From: Thermoflexia bacterium
GTDB taxonomy: Bacteria; Chloroflexota; Anaerolineae; B4-G1
DNA length: 38,058 nucleotides
NCBI GenBank assembly: GCA_011192155.1
Contig: DUEK01000013.1
Span: 1-38,058, forward strand
Direction of reading: 5' to 3'
Each line of letters starts with the position of its first letter. Position 1 is the stretch's first letter. The notes beneath the pieces were generated by a model. That model was not told the DNA's origin and searched no databases. It was given only the letters and a program-made list of their open reading frames with translations. The position numbers and the translations under genes were made by a program. This document shows positions 5,365 through 20,213 of the stretch, piece by piece.

Positions 5365-6024
5365 TTAGGGCAGCAGCAACACCAGAATCAGCGCCGAGAC
5401 CGCCGGGACGGTCAGGTTATCAATCCCCCATGGTGAAACCGCCTCGACTGCTGTTGCACCGAGCGCGGTTGCGGCAGCGACCCACACGGCGGTGAGCGGG
5501 TCGGCGGCCCCCAGCAGTAACAACGCCGCCAGCGTCGCTGCCCAACCGGCGAGGAACATCACGCCCGATCCCTCCAGCGAGCGGGTGCTTCCCAGGACGG
5601 TGTAAGTGCGCCGCCCGAAGCGGCGTCCCAGCACGGCGGCCAGCGCGTCCCCCCACGTCATCGGCATCAGGCCCGCCACAAGCAGGTGCGGGCGATCCCA
5701 CAGCAGCCAGATCAGGGCCGCGAACGAGATGGGAAAGTAGATGGTGCCCAGGTTCTCTTTATCGCCGGTCTCCATGGCCTTGAACGTCCCCTGCCGGTAG
5801 GAAAAGGCGTTGATGAGCACGAACGTCAGCGGCGGGATGATGGCTAGCGCACGGCTCTCGAACAAGAGCACCGTCCCATAGACCCACATACCGACGGCGA
5901 TGTGGATGAACTTGCGGGTGAACTCGGCCGGATAGCCGCGCCACTTGCGCAAGCCCTCGGCCGCGCCGATGGCGGCGACTACGTAGATGAAGGCGGTGAG
6001 AAGGGTGATCCAGTTTGGGTTCAT
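5365..6024 (-). CDS. Phytol/dolichol-kinase-like polytopic membrane protein
   Basis: 219 residues with six or seven hydrophobic helices. It shows the signature motifs of the phytol kinase/dolichol kinase/CDP-archaeol-like family: EFTRKFIHIAVG near residue 35, GDALAAVLGRRFGRR near residue 125 followed by GSTRSLEGS, and EAVSPWGIDNLTVP near the C-terminus. Family members phosphorylate long isoprenoid alcohols using CTP or ATP in the membrane. The substrate here cannot be read from the sequence. It lies 47 bp downstream of the EAD-protease gene on the same strand, so it may be the last gene of that operon or have an independent promoter. It could instead be a housekeeping lipid enzyme. Confidence 0.75.
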   Translation of the reverse strand: MNPNWITLLTAFIYVVAAIGAAEGLRKWRGYPAEFTRKFIHIAVGMWVYGTVLLFESRALAIIPPLTFVLINAFSYRQGTFKAMETGDKENLGTIYFPISFAALIWLLWDRPHLLVAGLMPMTWGDALAAVLGRRFGRRTYTVLGSTRSLEGSGVMFLAGWAATLAALLLLGAADPLTAVWVAAATALGATAVEAVSPWGIDNLTVPAVSALILVLLLP

Positions 6025-6071: not shown

Positions 6072-7079
6072 CTATTGTGGCCAGAATCTACATCCATCCG
6101 CCTTGATCGCGGACATCAAAATACCTTCGTTAATAAACCGCTTGTCGCCTTTGGTATTTGTCTGAAGTTCACCGCCAGCATGATGGATAGCTATTACCTG
6201 CCACAAGTCGTTGAAAACAGGGGAGCCACTGGAGCCGGGCATTGTGTCCGTGGTGTAGTGCAGCCGATGCTTCCACAGGCCCACCACCTGGTTTGCGGTG
6301 AGAACGATTTGTTTGGGACCACCGTTAGGATGTTGGATGATGATTACGTGCTCTCCGTGTACAGGATCAGCATGCGGATTAAGCAGGACACGTCCCCAAT
6401 CATCCAACTCTCGGTCATCGGGTTTAGTCAGCACACCAACAATGGTGTAATCCAGTGCTGTGTTGGTGTGAAATCGCTCAGGATCCAGATGGTAGCGGAA
6501 GGTCGTTAGCGGGTTCCCCCTAGTATCCAACTGATAGTTGAACTCGGCCTTCGATTTGGCCGCAATGGCCGAGTCAGGGAGGACGTGGTGGTTCGTCATC
6601 AATAAATTCGAGCCGATCAAGAAGCCTGTCCCTAGACCATTGGGAGTGAGAATACGACAGATACTTTTGGCTACCTGTATCCCTTGTTCAATCCAAGAGA
6701 TCTGCTTGAGGTTGTTGACTCCAAAGATTTTCTCTAGTTTGACTTGGTCCGGGATGAGGGTCTCTCTGTCTATCATCACTGGCGGTGAGAAGGGTAACCT
6801 GTCTCTACTTATCTTCTTTGGGATTTCTTTGATGAGGGCCAATACGTTGTCTTCTAGTTTGGCTTGTTCTACCCGAGCTTCCTCTCGGGTGAGAGTACCC
6901 TTTCGCTCCTCGCGCTGGATGCGGTTGTAGCGCGCCATATCCAGAATGGCTTCGTTATAGAGGTCACCATCACTGGCGGCCAAGTAGTTCTTCAATTGGT
7001 CAAGGGCCAATTGTAGTTCACCCTGAGCGATTTGCTCCCGAATGTTTTGAAGGAGCTTTGGTAGAGATGCTGTAGTCAT
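6072..7079 (-). CDS. EAD-coupled trypsin-like serine protease (putative conflict effector)
   Basis: 335 residues. Residues ~10-85 are helical (IREQIAQGELQLALDQLK..YNRIQREERKGTLT..LALIKEI), the pattern of the EAD11-type effector-associated domain that recruits effectors in NTP-dependent conflict systems. Residues ~135-325 form a trypsin/V8-like protease: CRILTPNGLGTGFLIG, TNHHVL with catalytic His165, ALDYTIV with Asp210, and PGSSGSPV with Ser284, so the triad is complete. There is no signal peptide and no membrane segment, so it should act in the cytoplasm. An AGGA site precedes the ATG, and the upstream receiver-EAD gene ends 4 bp before. The C-terminal segment of that neighbour aligns with this EAD, which suggests direct homotypic binding. 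I infer a protease effector activated by the upstream signalling relay; the target is unknown. Confidence 0.85.
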   Translation of the reverse strand: MTTASLPKLLQNIREQIAQGELQLALDQLKNYLAASDGDLYNEAILDMARYNRIQREERKGTLTREEARVEQAKLEDNVLALIKEIPKKISRDRLPFSPPVMIDRETLIPDQVKLEKIFGVNNLKQISWIEQGIQVAKSICRILTPNGLGTGFLIGSNLLMTNHHVLPDSAIAAKSKAEFNYQLDTRGNPLTTFRYHLDPERFHTNTALDYTIVGVLTKPDDRELDDWGRVLLNPHADPVHGEHVIIIQHPNGGPKQIVLTANQVVGLWKHRLHYTTDTMPGSSGSPVFNDLWQVIAIHHAGGELQTNTKGDKRFINEGILMSAIKADGCRFWPQ

Positions 7080-7083
7080 TGCT

Positions 7084-8019
7084 CTATCCTAAATGGTGAA
7101 TGAGTTCAAGAATATTGGTCGAGATCTGACCAAGTCCGGCATTGTAGACATCGAGTGTAATTATGCCCCGTCGCTTTCGTTCTTCCAGGTCTGTGAGTTG
7201 CCGGAGCAGTGGAACAGCATAGAATTGATAGCCGTTTATGCCATGTAGCATTTCTAGCGCTGCTCTCAGGTCGTTCCCTATAATGAATTCCTCGATCTCG
7301 TCCACGGTTTTTGTGTCAAGCTTCACGCGCGAGGAACGGCTGCTAACCGGGCAGATCTGGTCGAGTTCTTGTCCCAGTTTCAGATCAGTTGGCCGAAGCC
7401 CCCTTACAGTGTCGCAGAAGGTGCAAATGGCATCGGACCCAAAGTTACTGACGAGCACAGCGATCATATAGCCCAATGTTTGTCTCTTTGTGTTGTTCGT
7501 AAAACCTGTTAGCGGCTGAAAACCTTGGAAGCCTGGATAGCTGTAAAAGTTAGTTAGCTCTTGTCTCACGCTTGTACATTCGTCCTCTGACAGGTAGCTA
7601 TCGAGTATATCAAGTAGTTTACAGACTATTGCTCTGTCTTCGATAGCGCATTCAATGGCATCGAAAAGGTCGTTTAGGTCAAATTTGTTTGGGTCAATTC
7701 CTTTGGAGAACAAATCATAGATTTGATACTGATACCGCCCAAACCTGTTCAAGAGCCGGTTGGGGTAGCCGCTGACGACGATGGAGGGTGTCAGAGGGCT
7801 ATAGCGGACGACGGCGGCTAGGACTCTTTCTCCTAGGAAGTCACTCTCAGTCACGAGGTGAAGATTGAGGAGGACTGCGTCAAACTCTGTTCTTTCCAAC
7901 AACCCTTCAGCCTGTTTTACTTGGTCCACTACTTGGACTTGGTACCCCATCGATCCAAGACCTTGCGAAAAGATTCTGCTCCACTTTTTTCTGTTTTCCA
8001 CAACTAATACCGAGTGCAT
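7084..8019 (-). CDS. Degenerate receiver-domain protein with C-terminal EAD-like adaptor
   Basis: 311 residues. Residues 1-~125 have a CheY-like fold (HSVLVVENRKKW..FDAVLLNLHL..PSIVVSGYP..LFSKGID). The phospho-acceptor Asp is replaced by Asn52 (VLLNLHL) and the acidic pair is only Glu8-Asn9, so normal phosphorylation is unlikely. The middle (~130-215) is an unrecognised helical segment. Residues ~238-308 (IEEFIIGNDLRAALEML..LTDLEERKRRGIIT..ILELIHHL) align by eye with the EAD of the next protein (matching I-E-I-G-L-AL, then ERK-G-T, then L-LI). I infer an adaptor that couples the two-component proteins to the EAD-protease. An AGGAG site lies 9 bases before the ATG. The gene looks AT-richer than uvrC, which is compatible with transfer. 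Confidence 0.75.
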   Translation of the reverse strand: MHSVLVVENRKKWSRIFSQGLGSMGYQVQVVDQVKQAEGLLERTEFDAVLLNLHLVTESDFLGERVLAAVVRYSPLTPSIVVSGYPNRLLNRFGRYQYQIYDLFSKGIDPNKFDLNDLFDAIECAIEDRAIVCKLLDILDSYLSEDECTSVRQELTNFYSYPGFQGFQPLTGFTNNTKRQTLGYMIAVLVSNFGSDAICTFCDTVRGLRPTDLKLGQELDQICPVSSRSSRVKLDTKTVDEIEEFIIGNDLRAALEMLHGINGYQFYAVPLLRQLTDLEERKRRGIITLDVYNAGLGQISTNILELIHHLG

Positions 8020-8054: not shown

Positions 8055-8483
8055 TCAGAGATGCACCATTTGAGCTTGTTGCACCAACTCTCGAATGGTA
8101 TCCCGAAATTGAACGATGTCGAGCCCTTGGGGAGGATTTTTGAAGGTAAACACCTCGGCTCCAATCTGTTGGACGTGCGTCTCGGTACCTGGCGGAGCAT
8201 AGCCCGTCATCACAAGAACACACGTCCTGAGACCCGCTGTCTTGATCTCTTGGAGGAGTTCTAGTCCCTGAATATCATAGCGACGCTCGTCAAGTAGCCG
8301 GATGTCCAGAATAGCAACGTCGAAATCTTTCGTCAATAGGAGCGCACGGGCTTCGTCCAGGCTACTCGATGTCTGCACCTGGTGACCATCCGCTTGCAGC
8401 AACTCGTCCAGGGTCTCGCGCCAGTTTTTCTGATCGTCAACGATCAGGATTAGCCCCTGTGAAGATGGTGTAGCCAGATTCAT
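8055..8483 (-). CDS. Single-domain CheY-like response regulator
   Basis: 142 residues, consisting of a receiver domain only. It has the complete phosphorylation site: Asp16-Asp17 in LIVDDQKNW, acceptor Asp60 in VAILDIRL, Thr93 in VMTGY and Lys115 in TFKNPP. No DNA-binding or other output domain follows. AGGAG lies 6 bases before the ATG and overlaps the end of the kinase gene (3-bp gap), so the pair is almost certainly co-translated and the kinase is the likely phosphodonor. Output must go through protein contact, most plausibly with the degenerate-receiver EAD protein encoded 35 bp downstream. Confidence 0.9.
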   Translation of the reverse strand: MNLATPSSQGLILIVDDQKNWRETLDELLQADGHQVQTSSSLDEARALLLTKDFDVAILDIRLLDERRYDIQGLELLQEIKTAGLRTCVLVMTGYAPPGTETHVQQIGAEVFTFKNPPQGLDIVQFRDTIRELVQQAQMVHL

Positions 8484-8486
8484 GTC

Positions 8487-10298
8487 TTACTCCTTCAATC
8501 GTTTGGCAGCAGGCAACCGGATATGCACCGTGGTCCCTTTGCCTACCTCGCTGTCTACAGTAATCTCCCCACCCAGCGACTCGACCGTGTTCTTGGTCCG
8601 CCATAGTCCGTAGCCCAAGCTCGATCCTTTTGTAGTATAAAAGAGGTCAAAGATGTTATGTAGCACATCCTCTGGGATCCCATATCCTTCGTCTTTTACT
8701 TCGATCTCGACCCATCCTTCACCGATTTTGTCCTGCTTATATGCTGTAGAGATATCAAATCGGCCTCCCGTATTGACCATAGCTTCGATTGCATTCGTGG
8801 TCACGTCACGAATTGCTTCTTCTAGTTCGGCCTCGATGCCCAACACCGGTGGCAACTCGGTCTCCAGGTGTTCATCATAAACTTTTACAAAGTCCGGGGT
8901 TTGAAGGCGAATTTCTCTAACGATGGTTGCGACCAAATCGTGCACATCGATGAGTTGAGGTTGCGGTATCTCTTGGGTAGATTCCTGTAGGCGTTGGCTT
9001 GCCATGAGGAGTTCGTTGGTGTCGTCCATAATTCCCTTCAGGTGGCGGCGCAATGATCGCCGTGCCTCGGGATATTTATCGCTCAGTATCTCGCGAATGC
9101 GTTGTACTCGGATCGGAATTGTCCCGGCCATATTGTTGATTCTATGCACAAAGTCTGCTGCCATATTGGACATAGTGCGGACTCGCTCCAGTTGGCGGAT
9201 CTTGTCCTGTGCCTCTTCTAGAATGCGGATCGTTTTGCGTTGGTCGGCATACAGCCTGGCGTTCTCAATCGCCACTGCTGCCTGACCAGCAATCGTCTGC
9301 AGCACCTCCTCATCATCCTTGTCGTAGACGTTCTCGTACTCGTCATTGCGCAAGACCACCACGCCCAGCACCTTGTTCCCCACCATCATCGGCACGCCCA
9401 TCCACGATCTGGGGGTCTTACCGATGTATTCTGTGGCGATAGTTTTGTATGCCTTTTCGACGTCAGACGGACGGTACGGCAGTTTAGTGCGAATGACGTA
9501 TTCGGTCAGCCCGTGTCCAGCCTTGCGCGGCTCCCATCCCTTTTCGTGCTCCGTGTCCACCTGCCGTTTGTTATCCATCGCCAGCCCAAAGCGCACCGTC
9601 CCATGGATGACGCTTTCCTCCGGCTTCTCTGAATTGTATTCATCTGGTTGCTCTGAATCCGGCTCGTACAGAGCAATGTACATGTCGCTGGTGTCCATCA
9701 GCAGGCTGGCTTGCTCGTAGATTAATTCCAGAATCTCCTGTTCACTCAGCCGGATGCCCAATGTCAATCGTCGCCCTACTTCGTTCACGGCGCGCAGATT
9801 GGCGATCTTACGCTCCAGCCGCTCGTGCAGCCGCACGTTCTCGATTGTCAGGGCCGTCTGGCGCGCTATGGTGGAAAGCACACGAACCCCACTATTGCCA
9901 AAGGCTCGGGCCTTGTACCTGTTTTCGACCACAAGGGTACCAATCACCCGGCCCTCGACGGTCATAGGAACGCCCAGCCAGGACAATGGGAGCTTACCAC
10001 CATCCGGCCAGTATCTTATTCCTTCACCTTCGAGCCTTTTCCTCAGGTCGCGTTCAAAGAGCAGTGGCGCTTTCTGTTCAATGGCACGGTCAGGTAACCA
10101 AGCATGTCCTTGATATGGTCGGGGTATCCAGGAAGCCTGATCCGTCTCTGCCATGTTGCCACTGTCCACGACCAACGGGAATTCGAGTTCCGCTTTCACC
10201 GGGTCATACAGTGCAACGTAAAACCGATCCACTTCCAACAGCCGCTGCACTCCTTTGTTGACCGACATCAGGATGTTTATGATTCTCTCAGTAGCCAT
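8487..10298 (-). CDS. Cytoplasmic GAF-GAF sensor histidine kinase
   Basis: 603 residues without membrane segments. GAF1 covers ~1-155 (ends RQTALTIENVRLHERL), GAF2 ~165-350 (ends QAAVAIENARLY), the dimerisation/phosphotransfer helix ~372-460 with phospho-acceptor His385 in FVHRINNMAGTIP, and the HATPase domain ~475-600 (DVTTNAIEAM N-box, DEGYGIPEDV, then SLGYGLWRTKNTVESLGG). The H-box is atypical, HRINN rather than HExxTP. GAF2 is about 80 percent identical by eye to the seventh GAF of the 1255-residue protein upstream, so the two share a recently copied sensor module. A G-rich site precedes the ATG. The probable partner is the response regulator 3 bp downstream. The ligand is unknown. Confidence 0.92.
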   Translation of the reverse strand: MATERIINILMSVNKGVQRLLEVDRFYVALYDPVKAELEFPLVVDSGNMAETDQASWIPRPYQGHAWLPDRAIEQKAPLLFERDLRKRLEGEGIRYWPDGGKLPLSWLGVPMTVEGRVIGTLVVENRYKARAFGNSGVRVLSTIARQTALTIENVRLHERLERKIANLRAVNEVGRRLTLGIRLSEQEILELIYEQASLLMDTSDMYIALYEPDSEQPDEYNSEKPEESVIHGTVRFGLAMDNKRQVDTEHEKGWEPRKAGHGLTEYVIRTKLPYRPSDVEKAYKTIATEYIGKTPRSWMGVPMMVGNKVLGVVVLRNDEYENVYDKDDEEVLQTIAGQAAVAIENARLYADQRKTIRILEEAQDKIRQLERVRTMSNMAADFVHRINNMAGTIPIRVQRIREILSDKYPEARRSLRRHLKGIMDDTNELLMASQRLQESTQEIPQPQLIDVHDLVATIVREIRLQTPDFVKVYDEHLETELPPVLGIEAELEEAIRDVTTNAIEAMVNTGGRFDISTAYKQDKIGEGWVEIEVKDEGYGIPEDVLHNIFDLFYTTKGSSLGYGLWRTKNTVESLGGEITVDSEVGKGTTVHIRLPAAKRLKE

Positions 10299-10337: not shown

Positions 10338-11714
10338 CTAATTTGCTCCCACTACTGCCCGTCGCCATCGCGCGTGCGCCGCCCGATACGCTTGCTGGCT
10401 AAACCGGACCTGCCTTTGTGTCAATATGACTTCCAGCAATGGCTCCGGAACGCCATGCCGTTTCTCAAGGTCCAGCATGTCCTCGCCGCTGATGTGCCTC
10501 TTGCCTTGCCTCGTCAACAAACGATCAAGTTGACGGCGACCCGCTTGCAACGTGCGCTCAAATCGTCCTCTCTCGTCAGTTACATATTCCAATAATTTGT
10601 TTTGAGCGGACGAAAGCCGAGGATGTTGGTCTGTGTAGAGGTCCAGCGTAGACTCAACCAGAGACCGGATAAAGGCCGGATCCGGGATATCCAAAAGCTT
10701 CTGGCTGGTCAGCATCTCTCTCACCAATTTGCGCATCAGGCGGGCACGCCCCCCCTTGCCCGGCGGCGGAGCGCCATCGGCCACCAGAAACAGGAGGGCG
10801 CGGATGTGATCCACCAGAATGCGCTCGTGCCTGATACGGTCGGCTACCGGCAAGGCCTGCGCTTGGGTAAAGTCGCGCACGTGCTCGATCAGGGGCTGGA
10901 CGCTGTCAATCTCGAAAACCGAGGACGCTCCCTGCAATAGCATCGCTACCCGTTCCGTGCCCACCACCGTCTCGGTGAACGGCTCCTCCAACGGCTTTAC
11001 GATGGCGGTATCGTCGTCTATGTGCAGCGTGATAAAGAGCGTATTCAGGAACTCGACGAACCGCCCACAACCACAGCCAGGGCAGCACGTGGCCCCGCAA
11101 CTCAGATGCGCGCCCCGGTCAAAGAACACTTCTGTATTCGGGCCACACTTGGGCACGTGCTCCGCACCCACCACGCTGGCGCCTTGCTTCCAGAAATTGT
11201 GCTCAGCACCCAATCCTACGATGCGATCAGGAGGCACGCCCGCTCTGCGCCAGGCCTGGTACGTCTCTAGGTCCGGTCCAAAGGTGTGTCCCGCCACCTC
11301 GTCACCGGCAAAATAGGTCACCCATAGCGAATCGGGATGGAAGCCATACGCCTTCGTCAAGAGTCCCCATATCCGGGCGATGGTGTCCCGCTTGCTCACT
11401 GGCCCAAAGGTGAACGCCCCAGGCATCTGGAACAAACTGAGGTGAATGTCGCTCTCCCCCACGTTGACCAGATCAAAGTAACGGAAACAGTTCTGCAACA
11501 GGGCGTAGCGATCCCCAACTCTGCCTCCCCTGAGCATCGCTGACGTCTCAACCTGAGCCAATCCCGCGCTCATCACAAACGACATCGGCACGGACGGATC
11601 CAGCAGCGAACTGCCCGGTATGACCTCGTACCCATCAGCCTGATAGTATTCCAGAAAACGTTGTCCTACTTTAGCCGAGTCAAGTGCCTGCCTGGTTGGT
11701 TTCACGGTGAGCAT
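10338..11714 (-). CDS. Orphan alanyl-tRNA-synthetase-like protein lacking editing and C-Ala domains
   Basis: 458 residues. It has the class II AlaRS catalytic core: FVMSAGLAQVETSAMLRG, motif 2 QNCFRYFDLVNVG with Arg78, HLSLFQMPGAFTFG, GLGAEHNFWKQG, CGPNTEVFFD, RFVEFLNTLF, and motif-3-like ETVVGTERVAMLLQG with Arg255. The AlaRS tRNA-binding helical region follows (LVDHIRALLFLVADGAPP). It ends where full-length AlaRS would begin the editing domain. The length matches the E. coli N-terminal 461-residue fragment, known to be active as a monomer. A Cys-rich insert (CGATCCPGCGCG, 206-217) after the catalytic strand could bind metal; it is not usual for AlaRS. It sits between sensor genes in the operon, so a housekeeping role is unlikely; alanyl transfer to another acceptor, or stress sensing, are possibilities. 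Activity is unproven. Confidence 0.85.
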   Translation of the reverse strand: MLTVKPTRQALDSAKVGQRFLEYYQADGYEVIPGSSLLDPSVPMSFVMSAGLAQVETSAMLRGGRVGDRYALLQNCFRYFDLVNVGESDIHLSLFQMPGAFTFGPVSKRDTIARIWGLLTKAYGFHPDSLWVTYFAGDEVAGHTFGPDLETYQAWRRAGVPPDRIVGLGAEHNFWKQGASVVGAEHVPKCGPNTEVFFDRGAHLSCGATCCPGCGCGRFVEFLNTLFITLHIDDDTAIVKPLEEPFTETVVGTERVAMLLQGASSVFEIDSVQPLIEHVRDFTQAQALPVADRIRHERILVDHIRALLFLVADGAPPPGKGGRARLMRKLVREMLTSQKLLDIPDPAFIRSLVESTLDLYTDQHPRLSSAQNKLLEYVTDERGRFERTLQAGRRQLDRLLTRQGKRHISGEDMLDLEKRHGVPEPLLEVILTQRQVRFSQQAYRAAHARWRRAVVGAN

Positions 11715-11750: not shown

Positions 11751-14700
11751 CTACGCCACATCGAGCAATGTGCTTTCGCTGAGTTCCTCTGCCAGTTCCC
11801 GGAGAGTATCCAATTCCTGGACCCGTTGTTCCAGTTGCTGGACGAGCCGGGCGTTTTGGAGGGCTATAGCCGATTGGCTGGCGATTGTCTGGAGCACATC
11901 CTCGTCATCCTTGTCATAGACGTTCTCGTACTCGTCATTGCGCAAGACCACCACGCCCAGCACCTTGTTCCCCGCCATCATCGGCACGCCCATCCAAGAT
12001 TTGGGAATCTTGCCTATGTAATCTTGAGCAATGGTTTTGTACGCCAGCTTGACGTCGGATGGACGTAATGATTGTCTGGTGCGAATGACGTATTCCGTCA
12101 GCCCGCGCCCTGCCTTGCGTGGCCCCCATCCCTCTTCGTGCTCTACGTCCACCCGCCGCTTGTTGTCTCTTGCCAACCCAAAGCGCACAGTCCCATGGAT
12201 GATGCTCTGTTCAGGCTTCTCTCGATTGTATTCATCTGGCTGCTCGGGGTCTGGCTCATATAACGCGATGTACATGTCGCTGGTGTCCATCAACTGGGTC
12301 GCTTGTTCGTGGATCAACTCTAGGATTTGCTCCTCGCTCAGGCCAATGCTGGAAGTCAATATTTGGCCTACTTCGTTCACAGCACGCAAGTCCTTGACCT
12401 TCCGATTTGCTAACCAGTCCAACTGCTCGTACAATCTGGCATTTTCGATGGCAATCGCGGCGTGGCTCGCCAATATGGATAACAACTCCTTCTCGTACTC
12501 GCTAAACTCGTGCGGCTCGGAGTCATTTAAGAAGAGGACCCCAATGGTCTCCTCCTCGACTTTCAAGGGCGTACCGATGATAGCCCTGGCTCCCTTCTGT
12601 GCCATAGCTGGATTGACACGTTCGTCCTTTCCGATATCCGACACGGCTATTGTTTTGCCAGTGCTGACGGTTGTCCAAGTCATACCCTTCTTCTGAGACA
12701 ACCGAGGGGGGAGGTGCCCAAACCCCCCGGGAATTTCGTATGAACGGGTGATAGTTTGCTTGGTCTCGTCAACCAGATGGATGACACCAGAATCCGTCCC
12801 GGTCAGTTGCATAGCACCTCTTATGATCAGGCCCAAAGTCTCTTCTACATTGAGCGTCGCACTGATCTTCGCGCTGACTTGCTGGAGAAGGTTCATCGCA
12901 TCTGCCCGATCTCGCTCCTTCTCAAAGAGGCCAGCGTTCTCAATGGCGATTGCTGCTTGTTCCGCCAGCATGGTCAATATGGCTTTTTCGTCGGCCGTGA
13001 ACTTGTGTTGCTCAAAGGTGTTGACGAAAAGCACGCCGAGGGCGTGATCCCTCAGTTTCAATGGAACACCAATAACTGACTTTACCTTACTGCGGGCTAG
13101 TGCCTGGGAAACGCGCTTGCTCTGGGGAACATTGAGAATCTCAACGATTTGACCTGTGCTGAATGCTTTCCAAGTCAGTCCTGTCTTCTCAGAGAACCTT
13201 GAGAAAATCAGCCCAAACTTTTCTGGAAACTCGTACGACTGGATGATCTCTCGCCCGGCTTGGTCAAAGAGGTGAATGACACTGGTAGCATCCGTCCTCG
13301 TCAATTGCACGGCACCTTCCGCAATGAGAGGCAGGGATTCCTCTATGGACGTTACTGCACTGATCGTTGCACTAACTCTCTGGAGCAGATCAAGGGTATC
13401 GGCTCGTTGTTGCTCCTGCTTTAGGAGATCAGCATTGTAGATGGCAATTCCCGCCTGCACAGACAGCGTATTCAGCAACCGTTGGTCGTTTCCATCGAAG
13501 GCGGCCACCCGATCCTGATCCGCAGAGATCACCCCAATAACCTTCCCTTCCACTCGTAAAGGAGCCAATACCATAGATCGAGGAGCGCCCGGTTTGGCCG
13601 TCATACCCGGTGAGAAACGTGGGTCTTTGCTGGCATCAGTCACCAGAGCCGAAGTGCCCTTCTGTGCTACCCACCCAGCGAGTCCCTCTCCCAAATGGAA
13701 ACGGCGCCCCTCTATTAACTCAAAAGGCACACCATCTGTGGCCTGGGGCGCCAATACTTGATTGTCGTCTAACACAAACAAAGTACAGTGAGTAGTTCCC
13801 AGTGTCGTGCGGGTTGCTTCTACGATGGCCTGGAATATCTCTTGACGATCCAGCAATGTGCTGATCTGGCCTACAACCCGGTTCAGCATCTCTAATCCCT
13901 CTGCCCATCTCCGCAAGTCTTTATGGAGACGTGCATTCTGAATAGCAATGGCAGCCAAACCGGCAAAGCGTTCAAGTAGCTCAACGTCGGTGTCATTGAA
14001 AGGTCTCTGACCACTGGCATCTGAGACAGCCAGGACGGCTACAACCTTGCCTGCTTCCTGAACAGGGACATCAATGACGTTCTCGACCAGGCCTGCTAGG
14101 TTTTCCTCGTCGAAAATTGCTGCATGCTGAGCCCATTCAGGATAGTTGTTGACGTATTTGGCCCTGCCTGTTTTTATGACCTCGCCGACTAGGCCTTCGT
14201 TGAAATCTAGTTCTACTCCTACTAGATCTGGATTGGGGCTGTATTCGATGGTAGCTTTCTGTGTTTCATAGTCGCACCACCAATATGCAGCTCCGATGCC
14301 TTCGTGACCTTCACCGGCCATCAGCATGGCGGCTCGTCTGATGATCGCGGGCATAAGTTTTTCCAGGTCTAGTCGCTGGACGATGTTGAGGGACGTTTCG
14401 TGCAGAACATCCAGTAACTTGAGTCTGCCTTTGTTTTCTTCATAGAGTCGGGCGTTCTGAATGGCAGTTGCTGCCTGATTTGCCAATGTCGTCAGTAACT
14501 CTTTCTCGTAATCAGTGAATTCGTGCAACTCGGAATCATTCAAGAAAAGGACGCCGATGGTCTGATTCTCGACTTTCAAAGGCATACCGATGATGGCCAT
14601 GGCTCCCTTCTCTGCCATAGCTGGGTTGACACGCTCGTCCTCTGTAACATCCGATACGGTTATTGTTTTCCCCGTGCTGACAACTGCCCAAGTCATACCT

Positions 14701-15518
14701 TTCTTCTGAGACAGTCGCGGGGGAAGATGTCCAAAACCTTCGGGGACTTCGTATGAACGGGTGACGGTTTGCTTGGTCTCGTCAACCAGATGGATGACAC
14801 CAGAGTCCGTCCGGGTCAGTCGCATAGCATTTCTTATGATCAGGCCCAAAGTCTCTTCTACATTGAGAGTCATACTGATCTTTGCGCTGACTTGTTGGAG
14901 AAGGTCCATCGCGTCTGTTCGTTGTTGCATTTGTGCAAAGAGACTGGCGTTGTGAATGGCAATGGCCGCTTGGGTGGCTATGAGTTCAATAATCTTCCGT
15001 TCCTTGCTCTGAAAAGCGTGGCGAGTCCGATAGTTGACAAAGAGTACTCCAACTCTCTCCTTGCCCGCCCTCAGAGGCACCGCTACCGACGAGACGATGC
15101 CCTCGCGAAGAAGGAAATCCCCCAGCTTTCCTTCTTTTCGAGGCCATTCTCCCATCAACCGGGACCAGTCCCTTCTGGCGTCGGGTGCATAGAAGGGTCT
15201 CTTTCTTCTTTTGCTGAGCATCTTGAACACGGCAGATTCTTTGTGCGGCCGTATGCGACCTCTTTCCCTCAGAACGTCGGGATGTCGAATGTCTCCCCAG
15301 ACAACGGGTGGCACGTTGACATCCTTCGTTTCCTCGTGATACTCGTACAAGACAATGATATCTGCCCCTGTAACGGTCCCCGCGATTTCGGCAATCTGCT
15401 TTAGAAAGCCTTCGAGGTCCCGAACTAGAATCAGTGACTGACCAACCTCAAGAAGCTTCTCCAAGGTCGCGAAACTGACGAAATCCTGCTTCTGCTGTCT
15501 GCCATCTCTCGCTGACAT
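11751..15518 (-). CDS. Giant sensor protein made of seven tandem GAF domains, no output domain
   Basis: 1255 residues. Start is the ATG at 15518 because AGGAGGAGG lies 3 bases upstream; an in-frame ATG at 15560 has no such site and lies inside the structured leader. Seven GAF domains of ~170 residues each end in the recurring QAAIAIxNARL helix (around residues 190, 370, 550, 720, 900, 1075, 1240), joined by short coiled-coil linkers (e.g. RTDAMDLLQQVSAKI). There is no kinase, cyclase, receiver, DNA-binding or membrane part. GAF2 and GAF6 are near-duplicates, and GAF7 closely matches GAF2 of the downstream kinase. It is the first gene of the operon, 36 bp before the AlaRS-like gene. I infer a multivalent cytoplasmic small-molecule or redox sensor that works through heteromers with the kinase. 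The ligands are unknown. Confidence 0.9.
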   Translation of the reverse strand: MSARDGRQQKQDFVSFATLEKLLEVGQSLILVRDLEGFLKQIAEIAGTVTGADIIVLYEYHEETKDVNVPPVVWGDIRHPDVLRERGRIRPHKESAVFKMLSKRRKRPFYAPDARRDWSRLMGEWPRKEGKLGDFLLREGIVSSVAVPLRAGKERVGVLFVNYRTRHAFQSKERKIIELIATQAAIAIHNASLFAQMQQRTDAMDLLQQVSAKISMTLNVEETLGLIIRNAMRLTRTDSGVIHLVDETKQTVTRSYEVPEGFGHLPPRLSQKKGMTWAVVSTGKTITVSDVTEDERVNPAMAEKGAMAIIGMPLKVENQTIGVLFLNDSELHEFTDYEKELLTTLANQAATAIQNARLYEENKGRLKLLDVLHETSLNIVQRLDLEKLMPAIIRRAAMLMAGEGHEGIGAAYWWCDYETQKATIEYSPNPDLVGVELDFNEGLVGEVIKTGRAKYVNNYPEWAQHAAIFDEENLAGLVENVIDVPVQEAGKVVAVLAVSDASGQRPFNDTDVELLERFAGLAAIAIQNARLHKDLRRWAEGLEMLNRVVGQISTLLDRQEIFQAIVEATRTTLGTTHCTLFVLDDNQVLAPQATDGVPFELIEGRRFHLGEGLAGWVAQKGTSALVTDASKDPRFSPGMTAKPGAPRSMVLAPLRVEGKVIGVISADQDRVAAFDGNDQRLLNTLSVQAGIAIYNADLLKQEQQRADTLDLLQRVSATISAVTSIEESLPLIAEGAVQLTRTDATSVIHLFDQAGREIIQSYEFPEKFGLIFSRFSEKTGLTWKAFSTGQIVEILNVPQSKRVSQALARSKVKSVIGVPLKLRDHALGVLFVNTFEQHKFTADEKAILTMLAEQAAIAIENAGLFEKERDRADAMNLLQQVSAKISATLNVEETLGLIIRGAMQLTGTDSGVIHLVDETKQTITRSYEIPGGFGHLPPRLSQKKGMTWTTVSTGKTIAVSDIGKDERVNPAMAQKGARAIIGTPLKVEEETIGVLFLNDSEPHEFSEYEKELLSILASHAAIAIENARLYEQLDWLANRKVKDLRAVNEVGQILTSSIGLSEEQILELIHEQATQLMDTSDMYIALYEPDPEQPDEYNREKPEQSIIHGTVRFGLARDNKRRVDVEHEEGWGPRKAGRGLTEYVIRTRQSLRPSDVKLAYKTIAQDYIGKIPKSWMGVPMMAGNKVLGVVVLRNDEYENVYDKDDEDVLQTIASQSAIALQNARLVQQLEQRVQELDTLRELAEELSESTLLDVA

Positions 15519-15533
15519 TTGCCTCCTCCTGCT

Positions 15534-15618
15534 AAGAAACAGCTTTTTTGAAAAATCCAAAACCCCGTCCCCGCTGTTTCTTGTAGCGTGAAGGACGCCG
15601 CAGGGGTTTTGGACGCTA
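15534..15618 (-). promoter_or_regulatory. Interlocking inverted-repeat leader (attenuator- or pseudoknot-like) before the 7xGAF gene
   Basis: Read on the - strand, arm A (TCCAAAACCCC, 15613-15603) pairs perfectly with A' (15566-15556), which is followed by TTTTTC. Arm B (AAGAAACAGC, 15582-15573) pairs perfectly with B' (15543-15534), just before the ribosome site at 15530-15522. The order A-B-A'-B' means the two stems interlock. A third short pair, TAGCGT/ACGCTA (15618-15613 and 15589-15584), lies between. A-A' plus the T-run resembles a terminator and B-B' an alternative or pseudoknot stem. Confidence 0.6.
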
Positions 15619-16083: not shown

Positions 16084-17058
16084 CTACGCGGGTCTCAACA
16101 GCGCGGTGACATAGCCGACCTCGCCCATATCCTCACCACCGATCACTGTAGCATCGGTGCGGATAAAGTTGATTTTGCCACCAGCGCCGCGCTCAAATTC
16201 GCCAAACTCTGGCCCGGCGAGCGTTTTTAGCACGCCGGGGCCTTCCCTATCGGCTTTTTCCTTCCAAACCACCAGCGCGTAATCCCCGCCGCCGCCGTTC
16301 AAGATTTCGCGCGCCCCATCAGGGATTTCCAGGGCGTCATACCTGGCACCAAGCACCAGGGAGATGGGTAGAGAGCCTTTCAACTGTTGCAAGCGAAACG
16401 ATTTGCCATTGACTTGCAGCTCGTTCCCGATGGCGTATTGCTCGATTTCTAGTTCCGCTATGGCAAACTCGTCCCCGTCGGCGTCCGAGGGGATGATGGG
16501 CAGCCAGATGCGCGTGGCGAGGTTGGCGTCTGCGCGGGCCCGAACTGCGGTCAGGTACACGCCCAGGGTCTCTGTCCAGCGTTGGAGGCGGGTGCAGATA
16601 TCTGTCTGGCCCTGGGCATTGACCGCGGCCCAGTCCTTTTTGACTTGCTCGAACAGTTGACCCGCTTTCTGATACCACTTTAGTGCATCCATCTCGTTAC
16701 CGAGCAATTGGTGCGTCAACCCAAGAGCGTAGGCAGTCACGGCCTCGTTGTGGCGCTGGCAGGGGGAGCGCTGACGTTGAAAAATGGGATACGCCTGCTG
16801 GCAAACGGTCAGTGTTGGGCCCAGTCTGCCCATCTCGCGGTGTGCGTCTGCCAGGTGGATCAGGGCCGCCGCTTGGCTGACGTTGGCGATTGGCTCCCGG
16901 CTGGCCTCTATGCTGTCCAGTGCGCGGCGCATAGCGGCTGACAGCTGGCCTTTCTTGCGCTGCGAGCGGGAGTTGCGCAATAGTTCAGCGACGAATGAGG
17001 GCAGCTCCTCGCAACAGAGCAATTCGGACGGAGTCAGTTGGGGCGGCAAGTTGATCAT
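16084..17058 (-). CDS. TPR-repeat protein with S24-like C-terminal beta domain
   Basis: 324 residues. Residues ~20-185 are helical repeats of TPR type (AAALIHLADAHREMGRLGPTL, AVTAYALGLTHQLLGNEMDAL). Residues ~190-320 are beta-rich: DALEIPDGAREIL, GGGDYALVVWKEKA, KINFIRTDATVIGGEDMGEVGYVTALLR. That order resembles the LexA/S24 peptidase beta fold (substrate-loop, DYVLV, GxVxGV strands), but I see no Ser/Lys dyad, so catalysis is unlikely. GAGAGGG precedes the ATG. It is the last gene of the SPFH operon, 37 bp after the second SPFH gene. A scaffold role is the best guess; the S24 resemblance is tentative. Confidence 0.6.
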   Translation of the reverse strand: MINLPPQLTPSELLCCEELPSFVAELLRNSRSQRKKGQLSAAMRRALDSIEASREPIANVSQAAALIHLADAHREMGRLGPTLTVCQQAYPIFQRQRSPCQRHNEAVTAYALGLTHQLLGNEMDALKWYQKAGQLFEQVKKDWAAVNAQGQTDICTRLQRWTETLGVYLTAVRARADANLATRIWLPIIPSDADGDEFAIAELEIEQYAIGNELQVNGKSFRLQQLKGSLPISLVLGARYDALEIPDGAREILNGGGGDYALVVWKEKADREGPGVLKTLAGPEFGEFERGAGGKINFIRTDATVIGGEDMGEVGYVTALLRPA

Positions 17059-17095
17059 ACATCCCTCTCTTTTCTTTTCATATCAGCGCCCTGTC

Positions 17096-18541
17096 CTAGT
17101 TCTGAGGGCTTGCATTTGAAGCTGTGTCGGTGCCATCGCCCAACAGTTTCTTCAATTCATCCAGTGTTCGCAATGTGCCGGGCGGCAAAAAGGCCCGTGT
17201 TCCCGGTGAGTAGGACAGCCACCACAGCGTCTCGACAAAGCGCGTGGCGAGTTTGTAGGATGAGAGCGCCTCTTCGCTGGTGACGAGCGGCCGGATCGCC
17301 TCGGTCAGCGCCAGGACCATCTCCGCCTGAGCCTGCACCTGGGCGGCCTGTAGGCGGGCCAGTTCCGCCTCCCCCTCCGCCATGCCCTCCACCGCTCTTT
17401 GCTCCCAGATAGAATACCAGGCATCGGTCCACTGGGTGGAGATTCTCTTGTCTTTGACGTCAATTTTGCCCAGGTTCACGTCGAGGATGCGAGCGCCGAC
17501 CTTGTTCCCTGGCGAGAATGAATCCTGTAGTTTCTGCTCCAACTGTTTCCGTATCTCCTCCCGCGGCGACTCTTCTTGCCCCGGCTGGGGGGGTTGCAGG
17601 AGCCAATCCAGCCGGTAGCGAGCCAGCATAGAGCGCAATGTACCTTCCACTCCACTGATTATCACCCGTCCGGTCCATTTTCTCAGTTGTTCCTTGTGCT
17701 CCGGCTGGCGGATGCGTACCCAGAGGCTCGTGGCCGCGTTGAACACCGCCTCGTCGGTGTAGGGCAGGGGAGTTCCTATCCCTTTTTCTCCCAATGCTTT
17801 GACGATCTCCTCGTCAGTGGGCCGTAGGCTCTCTGTCTCGACCGGTTGTTTCGTCTGCACTTGGCCCCATTGGTCGGTGAACCGGTCGTCAATCTTGAAG
17901 GTGATGTCGGCCTCACAAGAGATGGGGATGCCGTCCTTGGTCATCGCGTTGTCGGTGAGAATCCAGCGCTGGGGGCGCAGGTCGACGACTTCCCAGATAC
18001 GCTCAAAGCTATCGAGAAAGCCGAGGCAGGGGCCCATAACGCGGGTCAGGCGGCCTCCCTTTTCTAGCACCAGCGCGTTATTGTTGTGGACGACGACGAA
18101 CCCTCGCCCCCCGACGCGGTCGAACAGGCCGCCCACGCCAATATCAATGTCCCCATCTTTTATGATCATGATCGGGTCGGGGGCCGTCATGCCGAACACT
18201 CTGCGGTGCAAGAAATCGTGGGCCTCTTTGACATCCTTTGTGTCGTAGAGCGTGTGCATGAAACGGGAGGCCGCCCACGGGATAGCGGCCAGCGCCGCGA
18301 GCGCGGGAAGAAAGTTAAGCGCGACGCCGGGAACCAGATTGACTATCAAGGCGATGATAGTGGGCGCAGCTTTCAGGGTGACGGATGTTTCGTCGCTCAG
18401 TATCGGCTCTATTTCGGCCATCAAGTCTGCCCGGCGATGGTAGGACTCTGTTATAGCGCCGAGGAAAAACAGGAGTGCGATCACCAGCACAAGCAGCATG
18501 AAACGATTTGTATATTCGGCAAAGAGTGTTCTGCGGATCAT
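17096..18541 (-). CDS. SPFH/band-7-like membrane protein, second copy
   Basis: 481 residues. Two hydrophobic segments lie near the N-terminus (FMLLVLVIALLFFLGAI, and APTIIALIVNLVPGVALNFLPALAALAAI). A band-7-like domain follows from ~residue 135 (GGRGFVVVHNNNALVLEKGG, VVDLRPQRWIL, MTKDGIPISCEADITFKI), then a long helical region rich in Ala/Gln/Glu (EGEAELARLQAAQVQAQAEM), as in flotillin/stomatin-type proteins. The family forms oligomeric membrane scaffolds and often regulates proteases or channels. GGAGGAG overlaps the stop of the upstream paralogue (4-bp gap), so the two are co-translated and probably form a hetero-oligomer, as HflK/HflC do. No partner protease lies in this operon. Confidence 0.75.
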   Translation of the reverse strand: MIRRTLFAEYTNRFMLLVLVIALLFFLGAITESYHRRADLMAEIEPILSDETSVTLKAAPTIIALIVNLVPGVALNFLPALAALAAIPWAASRFMHTLYDTKDVKEAHDFLHRRVFGMTAPDPIMIIKDGDIDIGVGGLFDRVGGRGFVVVHNNNALVLEKGGRLTRVMGPCLGFLDSFERIWEVVDLRPQRWILTDNAMTKDGIPISCEADITFKIDDRFTDQWGQVQTKQPVETESLRPTDEEIVKALGEKGIGTPLPYTDEAVFNAATSLWVRIRQPEHKEQLRKWTGRVIISGVEGTLRSMLARYRLDWLLQPPQPGQEESPREEIRKQLEQKLQDSFSPGNKVGARILDVNLGKIDVKDKRISTQWTDAWYSIWEQRAVEGMAEGEAELARLQAAQVQAQAEMVLALTEAIRPLVTSEEALSSYKLATRFVETLWWLSYSPGTRAFLPPGTLRTLDELKKLLGDGTDTASNASPQN

Positions 18542-18545
18542 TGGT

Positions 18546-20213
18546 TTACTCCTCCGTATGGCTGGTCGAATCTGTCCCCATCTGCTTGCGCGCGCTTTGT
18601 ATGACGTTGCCCGTGCCCTGGGGGAGGAAACGGCTCAACGTTGCTTTTTCGGCCAAATCTTGCAGAATCTCGATAAAATGGCCTGCAATTGCGTCCACCC
18701 CAGCTCCACGTAGCTGTTCCATACGTTCGCTGATAGCCAGTATGATGTCAATCTGGGCCTGCGCGCGGGCCTGTTCCACCAGATGCAGCCGGCGCGATTG
18801 CCCGGCGGCCCGCCGAAGCGTGATCTGGCGTGCCCAGTCGGCCTGCCAAGCCTCGATGCGCTGATCGATCAGCCGCTCGTCGGCCGGCATCAGGTTGCTG
18901 ATCCCACTGCCGATGCGCTGCAAGCCCCATTCTGGCAATACCCGCTCTAATCCTTCTTGCAACTCTTTGCCAATCTTGGAACGGGGGTCCTGGCCGGGGT
19001 CTGCGTGCAACTCGAGCGGCGCGTAGAGATCGTCGAATGTGTAACGGGAGATGATCTCGCGCATGATGCGCTGGCCGGCCACCCGGGGTAGATCGTACCA
19101 GGCGTGCTTTTGCAGATCCTCCGGCATCTGGGACGGGTCCATGTGTACTATTTGTTGCGCATGCATGGCCTTAAAGACGTCGCTGGCGCGGTAGGGAAAG
19201 CCTTTCCCCAGCGTAGGAACCTCTTTGCCCGTGCCGATCTGGAACGGGGTAAAGGTGAAAACGTTGATGTCAATGCCGTCCTTGGTCCTGGCCTCCACCG
19301 GAAAGGCGCGCAGTTGCACCCGCAGGTCAACGACCTGCATAGGAGTCTCGGACATGCCGGTAAAGATGACACCGGGGCCTCTGACGCCCTTGAAGCTGAT
19401 GCCGGTCGAGATGGCGACGGCGTGGTCGCAACCGGTGAGAATGATGCCCGGCCCGGCCATAAATTCGCGGAAAGGGTCTCCGTCGCGCCGCTTGATCAGT
19501 CTCTCCTCGTCCGTCAGCCAGGTGCGGTCGCCCTCGGTGCGCCGCATGATCTTTTCATCTACGACGACGTAATAGGCATAGTTGGTGCCCAGTGTGTACG
19601 ATATCAGACTGCGGAGCGCTTTCCGCTGTTGCTCAAACCATTGTTTGCGGGCCTCTTTATTCTCCGGGTAGCGCATGAGAGCCCAAAAGTCGTACCATTC
19701 GTACTTGAACTTGGGGATCACTATGCCCTCTGTCGGGGGCGTGGGGAGGCCGCGCCGCTCAATTTCTGGCTTGGGAAAGGGGAGGAGAAACCCGGCCACG
19801 ACAAACAGACCTAGCCCAAAGACGAGCACCGTTGGCAGCGTGACGAACAGCACCCCCAGCCACCCAGCCCGCCAGCCGATGAGGGCCGCGGTCCAGAAAT
19901 AGACCCACACGACGTAGGGTATCCAGCGGCGAAAATCCTCCCAGCGGGGACCCAGACGCAGAAACAACAGCGCTCCCACGATCAGGATGAGCAGAAAGAC
20001 GACGGCCGGGCTGCCGAGCGAGAACCGCCACGACAGCAGGAAATAGATGAGAACACAGAACATCCCCCCCCGGAACCACGCTTTCCTAAAAGCTGCCTTG
20101 TCGCGCTTTGAAAAATCGGCCAGTTTGAGGAGGGCGACGATAGCGGCTGTGCCCATGACCACGAGTGTTATAAAAATTGCCGTATCGTTCAAGAGTTGTG
20201 GCGTGATTTTCAT
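18546..20213 (-). CDS. Polytopic SPFH/band-7-like membrane protein, first copy
   Basis: 555 residues. The N-terminal ~150 residues hold about six hydrophobic segments (FITLVVMGTAAIVALL, FCVLIYFLLSW, AVVFLLILIVGALLFL, VLFVTLPTVLVFGLGLFVV), many more than a typical SPFH protein. From ~residue 245 a band-7-like domain follows (GPGIILTGCDHAVAISTG, VVDLRVQLRAFPVEARTKDG, IDINVFTFTPFQI), then a helical region with QARAQAQIDIILAISERMEQL. AAGAGGT precedes the ATG. It is a paralogue of the next gene, and the order suggests an HflK/HflC-like pair. Function is unknown beyond a likely membrane-microdomain scaffold. Confidence 0.7.
   Translation of the reverse strand: MKITPQLLNDTAIFITLVVMGTAAIVALLKLADFSKRDKAAFRKAWFRGGMFCVLIYFLLSWRFSLGSPAVVFLLILIVGALLFLRLGPRWEDFRRWIPYVVWVYFWTAALIGWRAGWLGVLFVTLPTVLVFGLGLFVVAGFLLPFPKPEIERRGLPTPPTEGIVIPKFKYEWYDFWALMRYPENKEARKQWFEQQRKALRSLISYTLGTNYAYYVVVDEKIMRRTEGDRTWLTDEERLIKRRDGDPFREFMAGPGIILTGCDHAVAISTGISFKGVRGPGVIFTGMSETPMQVVDLRVQLRAFPVEARTKDGIDINVFTFTPFQIGTGKEVPTLGKGFPYRASDVFKAMHAQQIVHMDPSQMPEDLQKHAWYDLPRVAGQRIMREIISRYTFDDLYAPLELHADPGQDPRSKIGKELQEGLERVLPEWGLQRIGSGISNLMPADERLIDQRIEAWQADWARQITLRRAAGQSRRLHLVEQARAQAQIDIILAISERMEQLRGAGVDAIAGHFIEILQDLAEKATLSRFLPQGTGNVIQSARKQMGTDSTSHTEE

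Follow-up and report, generated by a model that had tools for sequence, protein, structure and literature searches.

Why should a gene that resembles alanyl-tRNA synthetase (AlaRS) sit inside an operon of sensory kinase genes? The question is raised by a protein encoded on contig DUEK01000013.1 of a Thermoflexia bacterium, within the stretch of 38,058 nucleotides that is the whole of the DNA analyzed here and is called the window. The reading that we prefer, and hold tentatively from the sequences compared, is that the protein derives from AlaRS but, instead of charging tRNA, would serve as the regulatory subunit of a conflict-type two-component system. The features of the window and the effectors of the related loci are collected in Table 1.

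Table 1. Coordinates of the features in the window and effector genes of the window and related loci
Feature	Coordinates	Strand	Basis or remark
AlaRS-like protein, 458 aa, ATG start; class II catalytic and helical domains only	10338..11714	(-)	Pfam, PDB matches, model
Motif 2, residues 76-101; Arg78 and Phe95 align with Methylomonas ATP contacts Arg68 and Phe89	11412..11489	(-)	11/11 members
Cys cluster, residues 206-216; C206, C210, C214, C216	11067..11099	(-)	Invariant in family; also in full-length AlaRSs
Motif 3, ETVVGTER, at residues 248-255; Glu for Asp, Val for Gly, Arg255 retained	10950..10973	(-)	11/11 vs 0/19 full-length
Lys320, aligned with Asn303 of E. coli AlaRS	10755..10757	(-)	Lys or Arg in 10/10; column beside a one-residue gap
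Lys418, aligned with Asp400 of E. coli AlaRS	10461..10463	(-)	Lys in 10/10
Seven-GAF protein, 1269 aa, directly upstream of the AlaRS-like gene	11751..15560	(-)	Pfam
GAF-GAF histidine kinase, 603 aa, H-box and HATPase	8487..10298	(-)	Pfam, motif check
Stand-alone receiver with phospho-acceptor Asp	8055..8483	(-)	Pfam, motif check
Receiver-like domain (Asn at phospho-acceptor position) and EAD11	7084..8019	(-)	Pfam, motif check
EAD11 and trypsin-like peptidase, presumed effector	6072..7079	(-)	Pfam
219-aa protein without Pfam match, 71% identical to the L028 protein in the same place	5365..6024	(-)	Operon membership uncertain
TPR-like gene and Band_7/SPFH pair, upstream	16084..20213	(-)	Matched in L028 (same genome family); operon membership uncertain
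Effector, window: trypsin with EAD11			
Effector, L025 and L027: calcineurin-type phosphoesterase with receiver			
Effectors, L028 and L029: receiver-Schlafen, receiver-CHAT			
Effectors, L043: receiver-TCAD9 and receiver-CHAT			
Effector, L044: HD-CE/EAD7/receiver			
Effector, L049: HATPase-TIR			

The window protein has a single domain, PF01411, matched over profile positions 2-423 of 552 with an E-value of 8.8e-70 and a score of 236 bits against a curated cutoff of 30.3. The NCBIfam alaS equivalog, TIGR00344, gave 242 bits, under its curated cutoff of 457, a low score to which the missing C-terminal half would contribute by itself. The PDB relatives are AlaRSs, the best of them catalytic fragments, and the match spans nearly the full length. 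An AlphaFold2 model, built from the 11-row alignment of the family described below, has a mean pLDDT of 87.5, and its residues 8-458 align to AlaRS chains with Z up to 40.3; GlyRS alpha, HisRS, and HisZ come next in the list of structural matches at Z 13-15. The motif arginines, R78 and R255, are both present, as are their counterparts in 11 of the 11 family members. The gene is followed by neither an editing nor a C-Ala domain, and the next gene starts 39 bases on. An earlier note, made from the DNA letters, had described an AlaRS-like catalytic and helical fragment with class II motifs, both arginines, and no editing or C-Ala domain; the Pfam and PDB matches agree with it, as does the structure prediction that it had suggested.

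The ten relatives, at 33-61% identity to the window protein, and the alignment of the model to AlaRS chains establish that this is a real gene, far beyond chance. It is not the housekeeping AlaRS. The window genome, a draft of 3.4 Mb in 178 contigs that is 83% complete, encodes a separate full-length AlaRS, and two further matches in it are short and fall in the C-terminal region of the profile; a separate longer AlaRS was found in all 10 carrier genomes, the copy in G043 being cut by a contig end. The earlier proposal that the sensory operon encodes an AlaRS-like protein additional to the housekeeping one therefore holds. Its author would have given it up had no separate full-length AlaRS existed or had the ATP-binding residues been lost; the former is present in the window genome, and the ATP contacts are kept in every family member. 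As a side observation, the window genome also has GAF genes near its full-length AlaRS gene (G000:C90:15488-20915), at a distance of about 1 kb and on the opposite strand.

The family comprises 11 members in 10 genomes, with L030 partial. Five further short proteins, at 42-61% identity, came from 60 related genomes that were searched; full-length enzymes, by comparison, were at 28-33%. A pattern scan of genome contigs, which used six short exact peptides and can detect only close kin, gave L025 from a Desulfobacteraceae MAG (57% identity) as its sole relative, and the same genome holds a second copy (L048/L049). In a class-wide sample, the family was carried by 8 of 396 genomes, three of these new. 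The spread at the order level is patchy (6 of 48 genomes), and in the taxonomic family of genome G330 the gene was found in 1 of 12. A phylum-wide sample gave 1 positive genome in 400, which is the window's own, and the phylum of the Desulfobacteraceae genome gave 1 in 297; three genomes passed the latter scan, and G832 and G990 were discounted as full-length enzymes with frames of about 900 residues.

A phylogeny was built from ten members (the partial L030 being left out), 19 full-length AlaRSs, and two Streptomyces proteins annotated as alanine--tRNA ligase-related. The ten members are split from all the other sequences by a branch with full support (100/100); long branches, both in the family and among the Streptomyces rows, may distort how sequences join. 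Judged from the tree and the genome samples, the family is one clade that is patchily spread. L025 is placed together with the window protein and L026 at a weakly supported join (86/75), a placement that suggests transfer. An origin of the gene in phage is not supported. All tblastn matches in the phage set were below 60% identity, with the best 15 of 24 records at 28-29%, and the scan of viral contigs gave no confirmed relative. One uncharacterized PHROGs family was matched, with a profile 897 positions long. In the plasmid set, all 69 records were below 60% identity, the 15 listed being at 29-32%.

What the protein might bind can be approached through its active site. The alanine pocket of the E. 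coli enzyme is formed by residues that we take to be Asp235, Gly237, and Val214, and the glycine two residues after the aspartate presumably lines the pocket. The aspartate and its counterpart in Methylomonas, Asp225, hold the amino group of the amino acid, and the Methylomonas enzyme contacts ATP through Arg68, Phe89, and Arg232 and alanine through Val204, as given in the available part of PMC12143591. In our alignment, the Arg, Phe, and Arg contacts to ATP are present in 11 of the 11 family members. Over the same rows, which are related and so do not count as independent events, the pocket Asp is replaced by Glu and the Gly two residues on by Val in all 11 members, Leu takes the place of Val in 10 of 11 (L048 has Arg), and a Pro of the GPCGPC stretch is replaced by Lys in all 11; none of these changes occurs in the 19 full-length enzymes. 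The window protein itself has Glu, Val, and Leu, and the canonical Asp or Gly is found in no member. The changes of Asp to Glu, Gly to Val, and Val to Leu each add bulk. Glu248, Val250, Lys189, and Asn224 form a pocket set that is invariant in all 11 members.

According to the available text of PMC12143591, combining V204L with L219M in the Methylomonas enzyme abolished the activity with Ala, Ser, and Gly, and V204L alone left most of it. Met occupies the position of Leu219 in 4 of the 11 family members, which gives a natural Leu/Met pair at positions 204/219. These data and the changes in the pocket make it likely, rather than demonstrated, that the family does not use alanine. The replacement of Asp by Glu and of Val by Leu need not abolish alanine use, and the activity kept by V204L alone counts to that extent against a regulatory subunit (same source).

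A functionless AlaRS duplicate in decay might also be truncated and divergent, as this protein is, with a catalytic identity to the full-length enzymes of about 33%. The frames are open in all members, however, and one invariant set of residues extends from the window genome to the Desulfobacteraceae MAG. This conservation largely refutes decay, to which we attach almost no probability. A single invariant pocket set looks instead like selection for one ligand. The same strict conservation could mean catalysis on another substrate, which is a point against a purely regulatory protein. An active adenylate-forming enzyme could use a different small acid, make an acyl- or aminoacyl-adenylate from it, and transfer the group to a small molecule or a partner protein, and the product could be detected by the GAF domains or the kinase. 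The ATP contacts in 11 of 11 members and the invariant Glu248, Val250, Lys189, and Asn224 are in favor of such an enzyme. The three side-chain changes shrink the pocket so that only something small would fit, and no gene for an acceptor or carrier protein recurs in the loci scanned; we regard this alternative as possible but doubtful.

The change of Asp to Glu brings to mind AcmF of ascamycin biosynthesis, a truncated AlaRS-like protein with the same substitution that uses Ala-tRNA made by another enzyme (PMC12945691, in the part available). By analogy, the family might transfer an aminoacyl group from the charged tRNA of the full-length AlaRS onto a nucleotide or other acceptor in the ATP pocket and so make a signal molecule. 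As described there, AcmF is without most of the ATP-binding residues and has Asn changed to Gln. The family keeps both the ATP contacts and the Asn, and of the three AcmF changes only that of Asp to Glu is present. From a comparison of these residues with the published description of AcmF, we consider a transferase of this type improbable.

The cluster of cysteines was given weight in the earlier note as an insert unlike ordinary AlaRS, and this part of the note is not confirmed. The four Cys residues are invariant in 11 of the 11 family members. In the alignment with the 19 full-length enzymes, CGATCCPGCGCGRF of the window protein replaces a stretch of similar length in the Klebsiella AlaRS, and four Cys residues are found at the same position in the full-length enzymes L046 (CGPDCKLGCECDRF), L051, L052, and L011. 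The remaining sampled full-length AlaRSs have mostly two or three Cys residues there, and the Klebsiella enzyme has none. The cluster was thus probably inherited from an ordinary AlaRS, and as a sign of a new activity it is ruled out.

Two positions involved in the reading of tRNA have changed as well. Asn303 and Asp400 of the E. coli AlaRS read the G3:U70 pair, according to the available part of PMC10036535. The Asn303 column holds Lys in 8 and Arg in 2 of 10 family members, compared with Asn in 17 of 18 full-length enzymes; in the Asp400 column, where 18 of 18 full-length enzymes have Asp, each of the 10 members has Lys (L015 was left out of these columns and of the domain comparison). The net charge of the helical domain is 0 to +13 in all 10 members and -1 to -9 in all 18 full-length enzymes. 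These basic residues and the charge could reflect nucleic-acid binding without the G3:U70 pair. The ratio of helical to catalytic identity averages 0.74 in the family and 0.85 among full-length enzymes, for pairs of like catalytic identity, and this lower conservation speaks against a strict tRNA-reading role. A mini-AlaRS of Tupanvirus without the Asn/Asp pair nevertheless charges tRNA-Ala specifically, as reported in the available text of PMC10036535, which counts against our preferred reading. Given that enzyme and the lower conservation of the helical domain, no firm conclusion on tRNA reading is drawn.

The Tupanvirus enzyme also offers an alternative, that of a true mini-AlaRS kept as a spare or inhibitor-resistant charging enzyme. 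The window protein has the same domain content, catalytic and helical domains only, and lacks the Asn/Asp pair. The ATP site is kept, and a mini-AlaRS without Asn/Asp can charge tRNA-Ala (PMC10036535, available part). Against this stand the family-wide changes in the alanine pocket that are absent from 19 full-length enzymes, the constant presence of another AlaRS in the genome, and the fixed linkage to kinase operons, and we find a charging enzyme very improbable. The earlier note had taken catalysis to be plausible from the N461 fragment of E. coli AlaRS. That analogy is weak, since the pocket and the positions that read G3:U70 are changed family-wide, a change that speaks against simple activation of alanine. 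The note had also suggested that a protein, peptide, or lipid is alanylated, for which there is no specific support.

The genes around the AlaRS-like gene offer a further line of evidence. On one strand, the order in the window is the seven-GAF protein, the AlaRS-like protein, the GAF-GAF histidine kinase, the receiver, the receiver-like/EAD11 protein, and the EAD11-trypsin protein. The H-box and HATPase domain of the kinase and the Asp of the receiver are those expected of a working two-component pair, as predicted from sequence. EAD11 is found on both the receiver-like protein and the trypsin protein; elsewhere in the family, most effectors are fused to a receiver and not paired by EAD. Neither a MoxR nor a vWA domain, as in vWA-MoxR ternary systems, was found in the operon proteins scanned.

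A GAF gene directly follows the AlaRS-like gene in 9 of the 9 readable loci, the window included, with spacings from gaps of 52 bases to overlaps. This count takes in L026, where the gene is a stub of 104 residues without a Pfam match that was recognized solely by 36% identity to the window kinase, and L045, which is cut after three GAF domains; L030 ends inside the AlaRS-like gene. In L049 the kinase follows the AlaRS-like gene after two small ORFs. About 70 open frames of the 3.4 Mb window genome have GAF_2 matches, a density at which chance would not be expected to produce the linkage. All 8 of the 8 loci readable that far also encode a HATPase-bearing kinase, a receiver, and an effector-like protein. 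The gene upstream of the AlaRS-like gene varies between loci, as does the effector (Table 1). The earlier note had missed this variable effector-like gene at the end of the operon, along with the family-wide changes in the pocket and at the G3:U70 positions.

PADLOC did not match the AlaRS-like protein; its matches to the trypsin, CHAT, and receiver proteins were weak, and its single match to the kinase was meaningless. No tRNA genes or RNA families were found near the loci in the scans, one of which included L044 and another of which left out L044, L026, L030, and L045.

Several further observations were made in these loci. The receiver-like parts of the window EAD11 protein and of L027:4241-5656 have Asn in place of the phospho-acceptor Asp, so they may be switched by contact and not by phosphorylation. 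The two small ORFs at L049:10480-11315 separate the second Desulfobacteraceae AlaRS-like gene from its kinase, and one of them encodes an HNH endonuclease; the HATPase-TIR fusion lies downstream (16304-17581). In the same gene run as the L027 system, L027:15167-17446 encodes a fusion of two S1 RNA-binding domains with a receiver and a HATPase domain. The upstream Band_7/SPFH (membrane-type) pair and TPR-like gene of the window are matched at 53%, 56%, and 28% identity beside the L028 AlaRS-like gene. The window genome has 142 GAF_2 matches in total, some in proteins of over 1400-2300 residues.

The same kinase-receiver layout also occurs without the AlaRS-like gene. It was found in L054 of the window's own genome, with a receiver-protein kinase and a receiver-EAD7 protein, and in L055, where the contig shows only part of the upstream side. 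In a poorly resolved tree of the kinases, the loci with and without the AlaRS-like gene are intermixed, and co-inheritance with one kinase lineage is therefore unsupported. It is thus probable that the AlaRS-like protein is an optional part of a wider class. Such loci, and kinases that are not of one lineage, count against our preferred reading. At 20794-23703 (+), the window also encodes an NB-ARC STAND protein whose EAD7 shares 42% identity, over 50 residues, with that of the receiver-EAD7 protein L054:6266-6937 of another GAF-kinase system, and by this likeness the two may be partners.

On balance we retain the regulatory subunit as our preferred reading. The kept ATP contacts, the filled alanine pocket, the basic residues at the G3:U70 positions, the close linkage to a kinase, and the changing effector all fit a synthetase turned regulatory subunit. 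The rebuilt alanine pocket beside a kept ATP pocket, in a setting next to a histidine kinase and suicide- or defense-type enzymes, suggests the recruitment of an enzyme of translation to act as a sensor or switch. The AlaRS-like protein would bind ATP, and perhaps the acceptor end of a tRNA, without producing Ala-tRNA. Its liganded state could be relayed to the GAF/kinase protein encoded directly downstream, and phosphotransfer onto the stand-alone receiver would then free the effector arm. In the window, the receiver-like/EAD11 protein might recruit the EAD11-trypsin protein through an EAD-EAD contact. That the thing read is a tRNA, and not another adenylate-like ligand, is the least certain step; the monitoring of tRNA, which had been suggested in the earlier note, is possible and close to this explanation. 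From the effector types and the patchy spread, we infer a role in defense or suicide.

The working mode would resemble that of the HisRS-like domain of GCN2 or of HisZ, in which a class II synthetase fold serves in regulation, fused or next to a kinase (GCN2) or an enzyme (HisZ). Those proteins derive from HisRS, whereas the window protein derives from AlaRS, is encoded by a separate gene beside a histidine kinase, and keeps its ATP contacts. A bolder and, as a whole, unlikely version would make the system a bacterial counterpart of GCN2 that arose from AlaRS. A synthetase that no longer charges would read tRNA and ATP status (uncharged or cleaved tRNAs in a phage attack, for example), and would fire interchangeable proteases, phosphoesterases, or a TIR enzyme through the histidine kinase and receivers, and so stop or kill the cell. 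For a sensor of the GCN2 kind, in which the binding of uncharged tRNA activates a kinase, the basic residues, the net positive helical domain, and the neighboring kinase gene are indirect signs only. To our knowledge, synthetase copies turned regulators are few, and we know of none wired to a bacterial two-component system with cell-death-type effectors. No description of a kinase-receiver core with an AlaRS-like member was found in the literature searched, from which subscription journals fell mostly outside.

Among known proteins, the bacterial AlaRS catalytic fragments (PDB 3HXU, 9JC7, and 1RIQ) share with the window protein the fold over nearly the whole length (Z 36-40), the motifs, the ATP contacts, and a Cys cluster that many bacterial AlaRSs have; the family differs in its alanine pocket and G3:U70 positions, in having no editing or C-Ala domain, and in being a separate gene in kinase operons. 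The Streptomyces proteins L033 and L034 are likewise short and AlaRS-like without an editing domain. Unlike the family, they keep the alanine pocket (Asp, Gly, and Val), fall outside it in the tree, and have other gene surroundings; these plasmid copies (L033:8004-9170 and L034:6007-7179) are 388-390 residues long, with Ala or Pro at the Asn303 position. AcmF shares the truncation without an editing domain and the change of Asp to Glu at the same place, and is set apart, by its description in the available part of PMC12945691, in the ATP-binding residues, in the change of Asn to Gln, and in its place in a biosynthesis cluster. The Tupanvirus mini-AlaRS shares the domain content and the missing Asn/Asp readers; it charges tRNA-Ala and replaces the yeast enzyme (PMC10036535, available part), whereas the family is known from its sequences.

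In EAD-coupled conflict systems, EADs are adaptors that couple effectors to the core by homotypic contact (PMC7159879, available text), and the presence of EAD11 on two neighboring proteins of the window fits such coupling. The available parts of PMC7159879 and PMC8195603 describe further features in common with the loci reported here, namely pairs of core and effector joined by EADs, trypsin-like and other peptidases, TIR and calcineurin-type domains, variable effectors, and a patchy spread. The cores described there are MoxR-vWA, GTPase, or STAND, and that of the window is a GAF kinase, a receiver, and an AlaRS-like protein. The AlaRS-like family is small and has clearly changed residues. 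If our reading is confirmed, there would be a direct line from the translation machinery, through the state of a tRNA or an adenylate, to a kinase-controlled effector, and a kinase-receiver core would join the AAA+, GTPase, and STAND cores around which conflict systems have been described.
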